The notes below the pieces were generated by a model, which searched no databases, was not told where the DNA came from, and saw nothing but the letters and a program-made list of their open reading frames with translations. Shown here piece after piece: positions 1,783 through 10,536 of a DNA stretch of 64,000 bases. Both the position numbers and the translations under genes were made by a program. Numbering within the stretch: position 1 is the stretch's first letter; each line of letters begins with the position of its first letter. Origin of the DNA: Halosimplex salinum (lineage in GTDB: Archaea; Halobacteriota; Halobacteria; Halobacteriales; Haloarculaceae); contig NZ_QWGG01000001.1 of NCBI RefSeq assembly GCF_003730195.1, positions 186,001 to 250,000 on the forward strand. Reading direction: 5' to 3'.

Positions 1783-3483
<1,701 letters not shown>

Positions 3484-3563
3484 GCGCGCAAATATTGCCG
3501 GAGCGCGCATAAGGGTTCGGGCGGACGCGAACCGGTGCCGGCCGACAGCGGCGGGCGTCGCGG

Positions 3564-4538
3564 TTACTTCAGGCCCTCGCTGGCGAGGTGGTACTCGAAG
3601 ACGGTCTCCATGCCGGTGAGGAGCGCGGAGAGGTCGACGCTTCCGGCGTCGGCGCGGCGGGACTTGACGTCGTCGTACGTGCGCTGCCAGCGGCGACGGA
3701 ACCGCTCTTCGAGGCCGCTGGCCCTGATGGCCTCGACGACGCCCTCGCAGTCGTCGGCCGCCGCGACCTCCGTGTGGGAGACGACGCCCTCCTCGATGGC
3801 GGCGACGACGACGCCGGCCGAGTAGTCGCCCTCGACGACCTCGCGCTCCCACGTCGTCAGCCAGTTACCGATCCGGGCCATCTCCTGGAGGTCCCAGAGG
3901 GTGTTCCGAACGGCGCCCAGGTCCGCCGGGTCGAACGCCGGCGAGTACATCAGGTCCACGTCGGCGTAGGGGAACATTACCATGTTGTGCGAGTCGTACT
4001 GGGTCGCGCCGGTCAGGTTCGCCATCTGGGGGTTGTCGCTGACGAGCGCGCTGTACTCCATCGCGTCGGCGGTCTGTCCGAAGTCGTAAGCGAACACGTC
4101 GGCGAACTCCTCGCGGCGCGGCGCGTCGTCGAGGCCGTCCTCGAACTCCGTCCAGAGCCGCTGGATGAACGCGAACGTCTCGGCGTCCACGGCGGCCCGC
4201 TCCGGGTCCGCGTCGACGTGGTCGGCGTGGAGTCGGCACGCCTCCCGGAACGTCCGGCGGTCGCCGTGGCACTCGATCAGGTCGTCGAGCACCGTGACGT
4301 ACATCGTGAGGACCGTCTTCTGCTCCCGAACGTGGGCCGCGTGCTCGTCGGCGACCGACGAGAGGGTAAAGGAGGGAAACAGCGAGTAGATCCACTGCCA
4401 GAGGAACCGGTCGCGCTCCTCGAAGTGACGGTCGTACGCGTCGGCCAGCTCCCGGACGCGCTCGGGGAGCGTGACGGCCTGCACCGACCGCAGGTGGTCG
4501 GCCCCGCTGTGCTCGCCGAGCTGTTCCGTCGTCGACAC
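3564..4538 (-). CDS. Class I terpene-synthase-like protein
   Basis: Likely metal-dependent class I terpenoid synthase fold, 324 aa, soluble and largely helical. Visible signs: an aspartate-rich motif VLDDLIE (D85, D86, E89) of the DDxxE type; a near-NSE motif N225-W-L-T-T229-W-E-R-E233, which fits (N/D)D(L/I/V)x(S/T)xxxE except Trp for the second Asp; and an R-T-Y cluster (R286-Y288) about 55 residues later, where family members keep an RY pair. The stretch after NSE (EGDYSAGVVVAAIEEG) also resembles bacterial terpene cyclases. The GTG at 4538 is chosen because GGAGGT lies eight bases before it; an ATG at 4649 would add an Arg/Gly-rich tail of 37 residues. Substrate and product unknown. Confidence 0.6.
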   Translation of the reverse strand: MSTTEQLGEHSGADHLRSVQAVTLPERVRELADAYDRHFEERDRFLWQWIYSLFPSFTLSSVADEHAAHVREQKTVLTMYVTVLDDLIECHGDRRTFREACRLHADHVDADPERAAVDAETFAFIQRLWTEFEDGLDDAPRREEFADVFAYDFGQTADAMEYSALVSDNPQMANLTGATQYDSHNMVMFPYADVDLMYSPAFDPADLGAVRNTLWDLQEMARIGNWLTTWEREVVEGDYSAGVVVAAIEEGVVSHTEVAAADDCEGVVEAIRASGLEERFRRRWQRTYDDVKSRRADAGSVDLSALLTGMETVFEYHLASEGLK

Positions 4539-4903: not shown

Positions 4904-5719
4904 TCAGTAGTGGCCCATAAGCCCCTGTCGCCGGGCGCGCCGGCCCATCCACTGGAACGCGGCGTAACCCAGGCCGAAGTAGACGACGGCCGTGCCGAGC
5001 AGGAGGCCGAGTTCGTCCGGCGGGAGCTCCCACAGGCGGAGCCCCTCGCGCATCGAGCGGGTGAGGAGGTAGCTCCCCTGAGAGATCGGGAGCAGACGGA
5101 CCCAGAACACGCCGACGGAGGGGGAGGCGATCAGCCCGATGAAGACGAACTGGAGGATGTTGAAGACGTTCTCGACGCGCTTGTACAGGAGCGCGAGCCC
5201 GCCGAAGAAAAACCCCATGCCGACCGCGGGCGCGATGGCGAGGACGGTGAGGACGACGATAGTCCCGACGGGGAGGTGGAGCGACTCGCCGGTCAGCGCG
5301 AGCATGAACGCGAGCGTCGCCGCGCCCCAGCCGAAGCTCTCGACGATGCCGACCGTGATGCCGGCGAGCATCACCCGACCGTAGCCGAAGGGGGACATGT
5401 ACAGCTGTTCGAGCGTCCCCCACTGGGACTCGCGGGTGACGCTCCAGGCGAGGCCGGAGAACGCGGTCAGCGCCATGCTCCAGAGGAAGTAGCCGACGAG
5501 TATCCCCTCCAGACTGTCCGTCAGCGCCTGTCCCGAGATGGCCCGCCCGCCGAAGAAGACCATCGCGAAGAACACGAATGTCATCGCCAGGCCCGAGAGC
5601 GTGTTCAGCGGGTAGCGATACAGCAACAGCGCCCGCTTCTTCGCCTGCGCCCACAGCAGCGTCCGGACGGTCGCGGTCCCGCGCCCGCGTCGCTCACCGC
5701 TCGCGGTCCCGGTGCTCAT
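4904..5719 (-). CDS. ABC-2 type transporter permease
   Basis: Membrane subunit of a two-gene ABC exporter, 271 aa. A basic cytoplasmic start is followed by about six membrane segments (e.g. LAMTFVFFAMVFFGG, VGYFLWSMALTAFSGLAW, VVLTVLAIAPAVGMGFFFGGLALL, LLGTAVVYFGLGYAAFQW). The motif SVTRESQWGTLEQLYMSP is the coupling-helix pattern of ABC-2 permeases (ESQWGTLEQL). Its ATG overlaps the stop of the ATPase gene by four bases (ATGA), so the two are translationally coupled. The exported substrate is unknown; relatives handle drugs, polysaccharides or Na+. Confidence 0.85.
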   Translation of the reverse strand: MSTGTASGERRGRGTATVRTLLWAQAKKRALLLYRYPLNTLSGLAMTFVFFAMVFFGGRAISGQALTDSLEGILVGYFLWSMALTAFSGLAWSVTRESQWGTLEQLYMSPFGYGRVMLAGITVGIVESFGWGAATLAFMLALTGESLHLPVGTIVVLTVLAIAPAVGMGFFFGGLALLYKRVENVFNILQFVFIGLIASPSVGVFWVRLLPISQGSYLLTRSMREGLRLWELPPDELGLLLGTAVVYFGLGYAAFQWMGRRARRQGLMGHY

Positions 5720-6786
5720 CGGTCGTCACCTCCGAAGGCGTCCTCCCCCTCTCCCGCGTCGCCCGTCAGTTCGAGGAACACCTCCTCCAGGTCCGGGTCG
5801 ACCGACTCGACCTCGTGGACCGTGACCCCGCCGGCCCGCAGGTCGTCCATGAGGTCGTAGAACCGCTCCGGCTCGCCGAGGGTCACCTCGAAGGCCGTCC
5901 GATCGCCGTGCCGCTCGAACTCCTCGACCCCGTAGGCGTCGCGGAGGCGGTCACGCGTCGCCTCGTCGAGGACGGCGGCGCGGTCGTCGGCCCCGACGAC
6001 GACGCGGTACGCGAACGTGCGGAACACGTCTATCAGGTCGGAGACGGCGTCGTCGGCGACCACCTCGCCGTCGTTCATGATGACGACGCGGTCACACACC
6101 TCCTGCACCACGTCCATGTCGTGACTGGAGAGGATGATCGTCATCTCCTCCTGCTCGGCGAGCCGGCGGATCTCCCGCCGGAGGTCGACCGACGACTCGA
6201 CGTCCAGCCCGAGCGTCGGCTCGTCGAGGAAGGCCACCTCGACGTTGCGCGCCAGCGCACACGCCAGCGACACCTTTTGCTTTTGCCCCCGGGAGAGGTC
6301 GTTGACGGGGGCGTCTGCCTTCTCCGTCAGCGATAGCTGTTCGAGCAGGTCGTCGTGGCGCTCGCTGAGCGGCCCCGGCGACTCGCCGCCGATCGCCGCG
6401 AAGTACTCCAGGTTCTCCCGGACCGTGAGCTTCCAGTAGACGTTGCGCGCGCCCTCGAGCATCGCGCCGACGCGGCCGTAGGCCGCCCGCGGATCGGCGT
6501 ACACGTCCACGCCCGCCAGCCGTACGTCGCCCGCGTCGGCGATCACGAGCCCCAGGACCGACTTGATGAGCGTCGTCTTGCCGGCGCCGTTCGGCCCGAG
6601 CACCCCGACGACCGTCCCGGGCTCGACCTCGAGACTCACGTCGTCCACCGCTCGAACCACTTCGTCACCGTCGCCGAACGTCTTCGTGAGGTTCCGTACA
6701 GAGAGCGCCGTGTCCGTGTCGGCCACCGACCCGGTCCGCTCGTCACCCACCGCCTCGTCGGGGACCCGTTCGGGTGTCGTCGTCAT
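5716..6786 (-). CDS. ABC transporter ATP-binding protein (exporter type)
   Basis: Nucleotide-binding subunit powering the permease at 4904-5719, 356 aa. Walker A GPNGAGKT, signature LSRGQKQKVSLACAL, Walker B VAFLDEPTLGLD and the H-loop SSHDMD are all intact. About 100 residues beyond the ATPase core form a C-terminal accessory domain (DUF4162-like), common in ABC-2 exporters. The ATG at 6786 (MTTTPERV) is preferred over a GTG two codons earlier; a TATA-like ggttatggg on the minus strand near 6811-6819 would give an almost leaderless mRNA. The divergent zinc-ribbon regulator next door may control it. Confidence 0.88.
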   Translation of the reverse strand: MTTTPERVPDEAVGDERTGSVADTDTALSVRNLTKTFGDGDEVVRAVDDVSLEVEPGTVVGVLGPNGAGKTTLIKSVLGLVIADAGDVRLAGVDVYADPRAAYGRVGAMLEGARNVYWKLTVRENLEYFAAIGGESPGPLSERHDDLLEQLSLTEKADAPVNDLSRGQKQKVSLACALARNVEVAFLDEPTLGLDVESSVDLRREIRRLAEQEEMTIILSSHDMDVVQEVCDRVVIMNDGEVVADDAVSDLIDVFRTFAYRVVVGADDRAAVLDEATRDRLRDAYGVEEFERHGDRTAFEVTLGEPERFYDLMDDLRAGGVTVHEVESVDPDLEEVFLELTGDAGEGEDAFGGDDR

Positions 6787-6892
6787 ACACACGGATCAGT
6801 CGGTGTCAGCCCATAACCATTTCCTGCACGGCTGTTCAGTTTGGGGACTGACACGACACAACAGTTTTTCCGGCGGCCGGGGAACGGGGGGT

Positions 6893-7876
6893 ATGGCCGA
6901 GCGAAGCGGGTCCGCCGGGACGGATTCGAGCGGGGTGAGGAGTGACTCGGGGTCGGAAGATCTGACGGGTGACTCGAGGTCGACAGACGGGGCGGACCCG
7001 ACGGCGGTGTTCGACCTGCTCGCAGACGAGACGCGACTGGCCATCGTCAGGGAGCTGGCCGTCGAGCGCTACGCCAACTGGCAGTGGTCGGGGAAGACGT
7101 TCGCCGAGCTGCGCCGCGCGGTCGGCGTCGCGGACGCCGGGAACTTCAGCTACCACCTGGAGAAGCTGACGGGACGGCTGGTCGCCAAGGACGGCGACGA
7201 GTACTACCTGCTCAACCACGGCCTCCAGATCGTCGGCGCCGTCGAGTCGGGGCGCTACAGCGACACGGGCGAGGTGGTCCGCGGCGAAACGAGCTACGAC
7301 TGCCCGTACCCGGACTGTCAGCGCGCGCTCGAAGGCGTCTACGAGGACCAGTACTTCCGCCTGCGCTGTCCCGATCATCACCGGTTCGCCGCGACGATCC
7401 TCCCGCCGATCGTCGCCGCCGAGCACTCCCCCGACGAACTCGTCGAGATCACGACGCTCGACACGCGACAGGACATCCAGCGGGCGCGCGCGGGCGTCTG
7501 TCCGAACTGCTGGGGGCCGACGGACGCGACCCTCCCCGTGGAGGAGCCGACGATGCCCTCACAGATCGAGGCCGACCTCCCCGAGGACACCGTCCTCGCG
7601 GCGTTCGACTGCCGGCAGTGCGGGCTCTCGTTCGAGGTTCCACCGGGCGCGTGCGTCGTCGACCACCCGGCGGTCGTCGCCTTCTACGAGGATCACGGCG
7701 AACCGCTTCGCGGCCGTCCCCACATCGACCTGCCCTTCTGCGGGCTGGCAAGCGCCGCCCTCGAATCGACCGGCCCGGTTCGCGTCCGGATCGACGTGCC
7801 CCTCGACGACGACTGCCTGTCGCTGTGGCTCGATAGCGAGACGAACGTCGTCGAGTACGAGCGCGAGTGCGAGTGA
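6893..7876 (+). CDS. ArsR-like winged-helix regulator with two zinc ribbons
   Basis: Probable DNA-binding transcription regulator, 327 aa. After an Asp/Ser-rich tail, residues about 40-115 form an ArsR-type winged helix (AVFDLLADETRLAIVREL, then a recognition region NFSYHLEKLTGRLV). Two metal-binding ribbons follow: CPYPDC with CPDH, and CPNC with CRQC. The C-terminal 70 residues form a separate ligand- or partner-binding domain seen in other haloarchaeal proteins of this architecture. It is divergent from the ABC exporter with a 106-bp shared promoter region, so local regulation is likely. GTTTTTCC at about 6864-6871 is a weak TATA candidate. A longer frame upstream exists but overlaps the promoter. 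Confidence 0.75.
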   Translation: MAERSGSAGTDSSGVRSDSGSEDLTGDSRSTDGADPTAVFDLLADETRLAIVRELAVERYANWQWSGKTFAELRRAVGVADAGNFSYHLEKLTGRLVAKDGDEYYLLNHGLQIVGAVESGRYSDTGEVVRGETSYDCPYPDCQRALEGVYEDQYFRLRCPDHHRFAATILPPIVAAEHSPDELVEITTLDTRQDIQRARAGVCPNCWGPTDATLPVEEPTMPSQIEADLPEDTVLAAFDCRQCGLSFEVPPGACVVDHPAVVAFYEDHGEPLRGRPHIDLPFCGLASAALESTGPVRVRIDVPLDDDCLSLWLDSETNVVEYERECE

Positions 7877-8752: not shown

Positions 8753-10372
8753 TCAGTCGCTCTCCTCGTCCTCGTCCTCGTCCTCGTCGGCGCCGGTATC
8801 GTCCGCGTCGGAGTCGGCGGTCGTCCACTGCCCCGCGTCGGTCGCTCGGTCCGCCCCTCCCTCGGTGGACCGCTCGGTCGCGTCGGCGAGGTCGTCGAGC
8901 GAGAGCGACCCGTCGGTGGTCCCCGACCCGTGGTAGTCGTCGGCGTAGAGGCCGGTCAGGACCTTGTTCCCGTGGGATCCCATCGAGTCCATGAAGCGGT
9001 CGGTGACGATCGCCCTGACCACCTCGCTCAGCGACTCGTCGTCGGCGTCGATGGCGTCCAGCAGCCCCAGCGATATCTGCGCGCCGGCCATGTCGGCGTG
9101 GCCGCCGGCGCTCCCGATCTGGCCGAACGCGTCACGGAGCGTCTCGCCCAGGTCCAGGTCGGTCCCGCGCGCTCGCGCTGAGATGTATATCGTCCCGTCC
9201 TTGACGCCGTAGACGAGCGTCGTCGTCACGTCCTCGAGGTCGAGCAGGCGGTCGGCGGCCTGCGCGAGCGCGTCGCGGTCCGAGAGCTGGCCGACCCCGC
9301 TCAGCAGGGCCGACCCGCTGCGCTCGCGGTTGCGGATCGCCCGCGCGACGGTCTCCAGCGTCTCGGCGCTGATGCTCGGCGACTCGATCCGGTCCAGCGT
9401 CCCCGCGTCCGCGTGCGGGACGAGAAACGCCGTCGCTTCGAAATCGTCGGCGCTCACCTCGCGCGTGTACTCGTCCGTGTCGATGCGGATCCCGAACAGC
9501 AGCCCCGTCGCCACCTCGCGCGTGGGGGTGATGCCGAGCGTCCTGAGGTAGTCGACGAGCAGCGTGCTCGTCGCGCCGACGTCGCTGCGCAGGTCGACGA
9601 ACCGCGCGTCCACCGGGAACCGCGGCGGGTGGTGGTCGATGACGATGTCGACCGGCGTGTCCGCCGGGAGGCCGTCGTTGACTCCCGGCCTGGAGTGGTC
9701 GACGAGCGCCACCCCGTCCGAGTCGGGCAGGTCCGCTCCGGGGTCGAGTTCCACGAGGTCGAAATCCAGCAAGTTGACGAACGCCCTGTTCTCCTGGTGG
9801 GTGATGTCGCCGTAGTAGTAGATCATCGGCTCACACCCGGTCGCCCCGGCGATCCGACCGAGCGTGACGGCGCTCGCGATTGCGTCCGGGTCCGGGTTGT
9901 CGTGTGTGACGATCGCCAGTCGCCCGCCGATGTCCCGGAGGACGCTCGTCAGTTTGCGCGCCCGAAGTCCCGCGTCGCCGGCGCGGTCGATCAGTCGCTC
10001 GGTCGTCGCGGCCACCGGATCGACGACTTGGTCCGCGATCGACTCGAGGACGGTCGTCTGGTCGGCGGTCGCTTCGAACCCCGTGTACGCGAGGAGGAAC
10101 ACGTCCGAGAACACCCGTCTGACGGCACGCGCGGCCGCGACGTTCGTCTCCGGGTTCCGGCTCGCGACCGCGACGGTTTCCGGCGTTCCGCAGTCGGCCA
10201 GCGTCGCGTCGTCGGTCACGTCGCCGACCTCCGCCGCGACGCCCTCCTCGCGGTACGTCTCCACGGCGTTCTCGTCGTCCGAGAGAACCTGTAATCGGCC
10301 CTGCCGCTCGGAGAGCTCGTCTACGAGTACACCCGCCAGCTTTCCGCTCCCGAGCACCAGGCGGGACGTCAT
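8753..10372 (-). CDS. RCK (TrkA-N) plus DHH/DHHA1 phosphoesterase
   Basis: 539 aa with three parts. Residues 1-130 form a TrkA-N-like Rossmann domain (LVLGSGKLAGVL). Residues about 150-330 are the DHH domain: THDNPDPDAIAS, LVDHSRPG and the signature DHHPP. Residues about 330-450 are DHHA1, ending in GSAGGHADMAGAQIS. The last 60 residues are an acidic Ser/Thr/Asp tail. DHH/DHHA1 enzymes cleave small oligonucleotides (NrnA type) or cyclic dinucleotides (GdpP type); the RCK module suggests nucleotide or potassium-linked sensing. A link to c-di-AMP turnover is an inference. All metal-binding motifs look intact. Confidence 0.8.
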   Translation of the reverse strand: MTSRLVLGSGKLAGVLVDELSERQGRLQVLSDDENAVETYREEGVAAEVGDVTDDATLADCGTPETVAVASRNPETNVAAARAVRRVFSDVFLLAYTGFEATADQTTVLESIADQVVDPVAATTERLIDRAGDAGLRARKLTSVLRDIGGRLAIVTHDNPDPDAIASAVTLGRIAGATGCEPMIYYYGDITHQENRAFVNLLDFDLVELDPGADLPDSDGVALVDHSRPGVNDGLPADTPVDIVIDHHPPRFPVDARFVDLRSDVGATSTLLVDYLRTLGITPTREVATGLLFGIRIDTDEYTREVSADDFEATAFLVPHADAGTLDRIESPSISAETLETVARAIRNRERSGSALLSGVGQLSDRDALAQAADRLLDLEDVTTTLVYGVKDGTIYISARARGTDLDLGETLRDAFGQIGSAGGHADMAGAQISLGLLDAIDADDESLSEVVRAIVTDRFMDSMGSHGNKVLTGLYADDYHGSGTTDGSLSLDDLADATERSTEGGADRATDAGQWTTADSDADDTGADEDEDEDEESD

Positions 10373-10536
10373 ACACCCCGCTCGGGGAACTGGGCGTAAA
10401 AATCCTGCTACCGTCTTCTTCGTCGGAAGTCACGGAGTAACCTCTCCGGCCAAACCACGAGCGAAAACGGCCTCGGCGCGAGCGCTGCCGGTTACCCGCG
10501 CTCACACCGGTCGCGTGACTGTGCAGCGTCGGTCGA

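Follow-up and report, generated by a model that had tools for sequence, protein, structure and literature searches.

The locus examined here raises the question of whether an open reading frame in the haloarchaeon Halosimplex salinum, flagged by the initial annotation as a terpene-synthase-like gene, encodes an archaeal class I terpene synthase. The membranes of archaea are themselves made from isoprenoids. According to a 2023 study, no archaeal gene cluster other than those for halocin and bacterioruberin has been confidently tied to a secondary metabolite (PMC10105419), while the haloarchaeal "terpene clusters" of another paper centre on phytoene synthase (PMC10093198). In the open-licence PMC literature on archaeal and haloarchaeal terpene synthases we found neither a description of the present family nor one of any archaeal class I terpene synthase, though earlier work may exist elsewhere. 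The frame is present on the minus strand at positions 3564..4538 of the window (the whole 64,000-nucleotide stretch that was analysed) and specifies 324 residues followed by a stop codon. Its GTG start at 4538 is plausible, as it pairs in alignment with the ATG of the homologue from Halosimplex aquaticum (locus L001), and its GC3 of 0.95 reflects the codon pattern of a genuine GC-rich gene. When searched alone against Pfam, NCBIfam and the PDB sequences, the protein returned no significant match; hence, its relationships become visible only through its family, by way of alignments, a structural model with its fold matches, and the Pfam matches of its relatives.

A first scan of contigs recovered 22 loci of this family, mostly from Halobacteria (the genera Halosimplex, Haloarcula, Halomicroarcula, Halorientalis, Haladaptatus and Halobaculum), along with one from a bacterial bin. 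The family profile matches 87 of the 292 sampled genomes of the class and 27 of the 295 sampled from the phylum, with families outside the class among the latter. The distribution is patchy, with the gene being absent from two other genomes of the window's own genus. Plasmid records label members of the family as "hypothetical protein". The copy from Haladaptatus halobius (L022:5001-5978) has two in-frame stops and is probably a pseudogene, while one genome carries a tandem pair of family members (L044:5001-5972 and 6370-7293).

An AlphaFold2 model built from 19 family sequences is all-helical (pLDDT 84.2, pTM 0.85), with low confidence at a putative break in the G-helix spanning residues 176-181. 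The top 50 Foldseek matches are terpene or prenyl diphosphate synthases, albeit with modest TM-scores of about 0.45-0.6. Comparisons with VIA-align gave Z-scores of 18-20 over about 255-290 residues against class I terpene synthases, including the taxadiene, Sat1646, epi-isozizaene, selinadiene and muurolol synthases, the first three of which reach a Z of about 20 over about 260-280 residues; these values exceed the Z of about 13 that the method itself gives as its caution level for helical bundles. Thus, the all-alpha bundle of the class I terpene synthase type, which the initial annotation had named as the structural support to be sought, was recovered by all three approaches. By homology to Sat1646, both metal-binding motifs are predicted to line a single cavity. 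At the sequence level, the Pfam profile Terpene_syn_C_2 (PF19086) matches 40 of 54 members with a best E-value of 2.2e-8. The profile search proposed for this gene was borne out for its relatives, several of which score above the curated cut-off of 23.7 bits, including some about 60-65% identical to the window protein (34.5 bits for L012 and 23.8 bits for L005), but not for the window protein itself, which has no match. Matches above this cut-off occur in 37 of the 292 genomes of the class, in two of them via canonical synthases. Against PDB sequences, the family profile matched Sat1646 best, at an E-value of 0.026 that is weak by itself, and a library of viral folds yielded nothing at E <= 0.001.

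We then consider the active site, for which conservation was counted in 54 relatives with 28-85% identity to the window protein. The two motifs on which the annotation was based, VLDDLIE (D85-E89) and N225-W-L-T-T229-W-E-R-E233, were both found with exact numbering. The first, the DDxxE motif D85-D86-L-I-E89, is encoded at 4272..4286 on the minus strand and conforms to the DDxx(D/E) pattern. The second lies on a helix encoded at 3840..3875 on the same strand that bears R222, the N225-T229-E233 triad, W226 and R232, as delineated by the 54-sequence conservation and the register of Sat1646. D86, R222, N225, W226, R232 and E233 are invariant; position 85 is D in 51 relatives and N in three, whereas only E or D occupies position 89 and only T or S position 229. 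Given that the mean column identity of the family alignment is 46%, such near-complete conservation down to 28% identity indicates that these motifs are not a chance occurrence. The metal ligands of the NSE triad are N, S/T and E. In this family the (N/D)xxx(S/T)xxxE pattern is preserved, with the consensus Asp at its second position replaced by Trp226 in 54/54 relatives. Because the three ligands are all retained, the tryptophan would be expected to be tolerated and need not alter metal binding in the way that had been suspected; it is a hallmark of the family and not damage. R222, likewise present in all 54, aligns in the profile comparison with R220 of Sat1646 and corresponds to the diphosphate-sensor arginine. 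A C-terminal Arg-Tyr pair occurs in many bacterial terpene synthases. The later R-T-Y cluster noted in the window protein is indeed there (RRRWQRTYDD, at about 281-290), yet across the 54 relatives Y288 is found in only 33 and the arginines vary; hence, no such pair is conserved and the cluster carries no weight. A subclade comprising L045, L047 and L048 shows NDxxD in place of DDxxD along with a strongly diverged middle region. Very diverged members from outside the class (L094:5971-6948) lack the sensor arginine, although their second motif still has N, T, R and E.

Sat1646, the closest solved relative by profile, and Stt4548 are actinomycete class I pimarane-type diterpene synthases (PDB 7e4n, 7e4o, 7e4m; PMC9814573). 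The archaeal family resembles them in its fold (Z 19.8), the Asp-rich first motif, the NSE-type second motif with the Arg that follows, and a helix-H diphosphate-sensor Arg three residues ahead of the NSE Asn. It differs in its low identity (about 14%), its archaeal provenance, the Trp in lieu of the NSE Asp and in that no SQHop_cyclase_N partner was found in the genome. In Sat1646, the diphosphate is sensed by R220 on helix H, while the residues listed for the Mg2+-B site include N223, S227 and D231 along with D224 and R230 (PMC9814573). The alignment of the family profile to the PDB sequence sets LSNDLASYERD against IGNWLTTWERE, such that R220, N223, S227 and D231 correspond to R222, N225, T229 and E233, respectively, D224 to Trp226 and R230 to R232. 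Y181 aligns with the effector residue Y183 of Sat1646; it is retained in 42/54 and falls within the region 176-181 modelled at low confidence. With respect to the bacterial and fungal class I synthases unified by PF19086, many archaeal members are recognised by that profile, several above its curated cut-off; however, the window protein lies below detection, Trp226 is invariant and the C-terminal Arg-Tyr is not conserved.

Taken together, the fold, the PF19086 matches in relatives and the motif conservation support the class I terpene synthase reading well, and we put at about 0.85 the probability that the predicted enzyme is catalytically competent and belongs to an uncharacterised archaeal family. 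By analogy to solved class I synthases, D85, D86 and E89 together with N225, T229 and E233 would coordinate three Mg2+ ions, and through these the diphosphate group of a linear prenyl diphosphate would be bound, with R222 and R232 also contacting it. Departure of the diphosphate would then generate an allylic cation inside the hydrophobic helical barrel, whose quenching would yield a terpene, either cyclic or linear. The substrate is likely to be GGPP or FPP, given that the genome codes for two E-prenyl diphosphate synthases (polyprenyl synthetases) and two squalene/phytoene synthases, while no SQHop_cyclase_N class II cyclase domain was detected in it by a search that did recover the Bacillus subtilis positive control. 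A family so widespread, combining the fold with the complete metal-binding active site of terpene enzymes, points to the production of as yet unidentified terpenoids, cyclic or linear, by many haloarchaea. With apparently intact class I synthases in about 30% of the sampled genomes of the class, archaeal terpenoid chemistry would become open to direct test; the invariant Trp of the NSE motif and the recurrent sensor pairing described below are features immediately accessible to terpene enzymology.

In the window, an ABC-2 transporter pair, the synthase-like gene and a methylmalonyl-CoA mutase gene follow each other in that order on a single strand. The mutase large subunit (1783..3510, minus strand; PF01642, E 7e-214) probably starts at an ATG at 3510, 53 bp past the stop of the synthase-like gene. 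While this neighbour, which the initial annotation had highlighted, is confirmed, its occurrence beside the gene is restricted to the Halosimplex clade and its nearest kin; it thus represents local synteny of a small clade that has no weight for function, and we reject a functional link to the mutase, whose presence here is probably incidental. On the upstream side lie a permease of the ABC-2 type (4904..5719, minus; PF12698, slightly under its cut-off), a possible exporter, and an ABC transporter ATPase with a DrrA-type C-terminus (5716..6792, minus; PF00005 and a weak PF13732 match), and both also adjoin the gene at L001, L002 and L004. In the family tree, the window falls in a clade where the gene is typically accompanied by a HalOD1 protein and a Bat-type regulator (PAS-GAF-BAT-HTH_10), an arrangement absent in Halosimplex. 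The probably ancestral Bat-type neighbour would have been replaced in the window's own clade by the putative ABC-2 exporter, which might move the terpenoid product.

Across the family, models for regulators were found within 3.5 kb of the gene at 44 of 79 loci, as against 16.8% of background positions drawn from 40 stretches. For instance, Bat neighbours occur at 26 of these loci versus 6% of the background, HalOD1 neighbours at 29 versus 4%, and FilR1-type neighbours at 10 versus none. Since the loci are related by descent and hence not independent, these enrichments are indicative and the pairing of gene and regulator is suggestive. The placement of the Bat gene differs by genus, being upstream or downstream on the same strand, or divergent. 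Other clades instead feature PAS histidine kinases, which also adjoin the gene at loci outside the class (L089, L090, L094 and L095), or have an HTH regulator of the FilR1-like type 2-132 bp downstream of it. At L054:4428-5945 a single open frame combines a response-regulator receiver (REC), HalX and terpene synthase domains; at L067, its sister locus, a REC-PAS-histidine kinase is encoded separately and a flavin oxidoreductase lies upstream. Potential tailoring-type neighbours include a P450 at L058 and L051, a FAD/flavin oxidoreductase at L054 and L058 (as well as L067, by reading of the sequence) and an alpha/beta hydrolase at L054. A candidate class II cyclase neighbour, L079:8102-9262, was rejected as its Pfam match is GH127, in light of which its annotation as "prenyltransferase/squalene oxidase repeat-containing" looks misleading. 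The patchy distribution and the frequent pairing with sensory regulators together suggest that the product may be a conditionally made specialised terpenoid. A more specific and rather speculative proposal, which we deem unlikely as it stands, is that the product serves archaea as a terpenoid signal or stress metabolite. Its synthesis would then be switched by dedicated sensors in the form of Bat-type PAS-GAF-HTH_10 and HalOD1 proteins, PAS histidine kinases (in haloarchaea and elsewhere in the phylum) and FilR1-like HTH regulators, and the fused enzyme of L054 would possibly be controlled by phosphorylation.

The same neighbours could be accounted for if the synthase fold were non-catalytic, acting as a prenyl diphosphate sensor or cooperating in regulation with the signal-transduction proteins encoded next to it, a notion to which the frequent Bat-type, PAS histidine kinase and HTH neighbours and the one REC-HalX fusion lend some appeal. 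We consider this improbable: binding alone would hardly require conservation of the full set of metal ligands and the sensor Arg, all of which are retained in 54 diverged members; moreover, such neighbours are absent in the window's clade and many others, and some loci carry P450 or flavin enzymes. Catalysis, in turn, need not entail cyclisation. A class I synthase could release a linear alcohol or hydrocarbon of the nerolidol or geranyllinalool type, or pass the prenyl cation to a different acceptor, as DabA with its terpene-cyclase fold does; the fold matches include a linalool/nerolidol synthase (5nx5) and the N-prenyltransferase DabA (6vkz, Z 18.3), and the conserved residues fix the diphosphate chemistry alone. 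Set against this, the fold matches are mostly cyclases and no acceptor-modifying partner gene recurs beside the family, leaving a non-cyclising reaction as a minor though real possibility that, being a sub-case of the main reading, is not mutually exclusive with it in probability. The labels "cyclase" and "undescribed isoprenoid" given to the gene earlier are interpretive, with linear products also being possible.

The kinship with Sat1646, the nearest solved relative by profile with which the helix-H sensor Arg is held in common, raises the prospect of a second enzyme in a two-step labdane-type pathway, acting on copalyl diphosphate from a class II cyclase; as no SQHop_cyclase_N domain, the class II type covered by the search, was found in the genome, this is very improbable. 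Less probable still is that the family represents a relative of the prenyl diphosphate or squalene/phytoene synthases. These share the superfamily fold and some prenyl diphosphate synthases do score in Foldseek, but the second motif is NxxxTxxxE and not DDxxD, so that the two DDxxD motifs of trans-prenyl diphosphate synthases are not seen in the 54 members; PF00348 and PF00494, the respective profiles for prenyl diphosphate and squalene/phytoene synthases, match 0/54 as opposed to 40/54 for PF19086; and separate genes for both enzymes exist in the genome.

Like the non-canonical class IB-IF terpene synthases, the family consists of "hypothetical proteins" recognised by their fold and not by sequence and often situated away from terpene genes, though those enzymes lack the DDxxD and NSE motifs, both of which are present here (PMC11234867). 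Two haloarchaeal genomes additionally code for canonical PF19086 synthases (L141:6848-8284 and 9008-10399; L142:1959-3392; L143:492-1889), for which assembly contamination is possible. They share the superfamily and the general order of motifs with the window family but differ in scoring 133-167 bits to PF19086, in having an N-terminal SRPBCC-like domain and in the canonical ND of the NSE motif. A profile comparison with these four sequences was not significant (probability 0.70, E 0.081), probably because their alignment has only four related sequences; it nevertheless pairs LDD with YDD and TWERE with SLPKE. The canonical synthases at L141 adjoin a prenyl diphosphate synthase (polyprenyl synthetase), and one of the three canonical loci has a P450 nearby.
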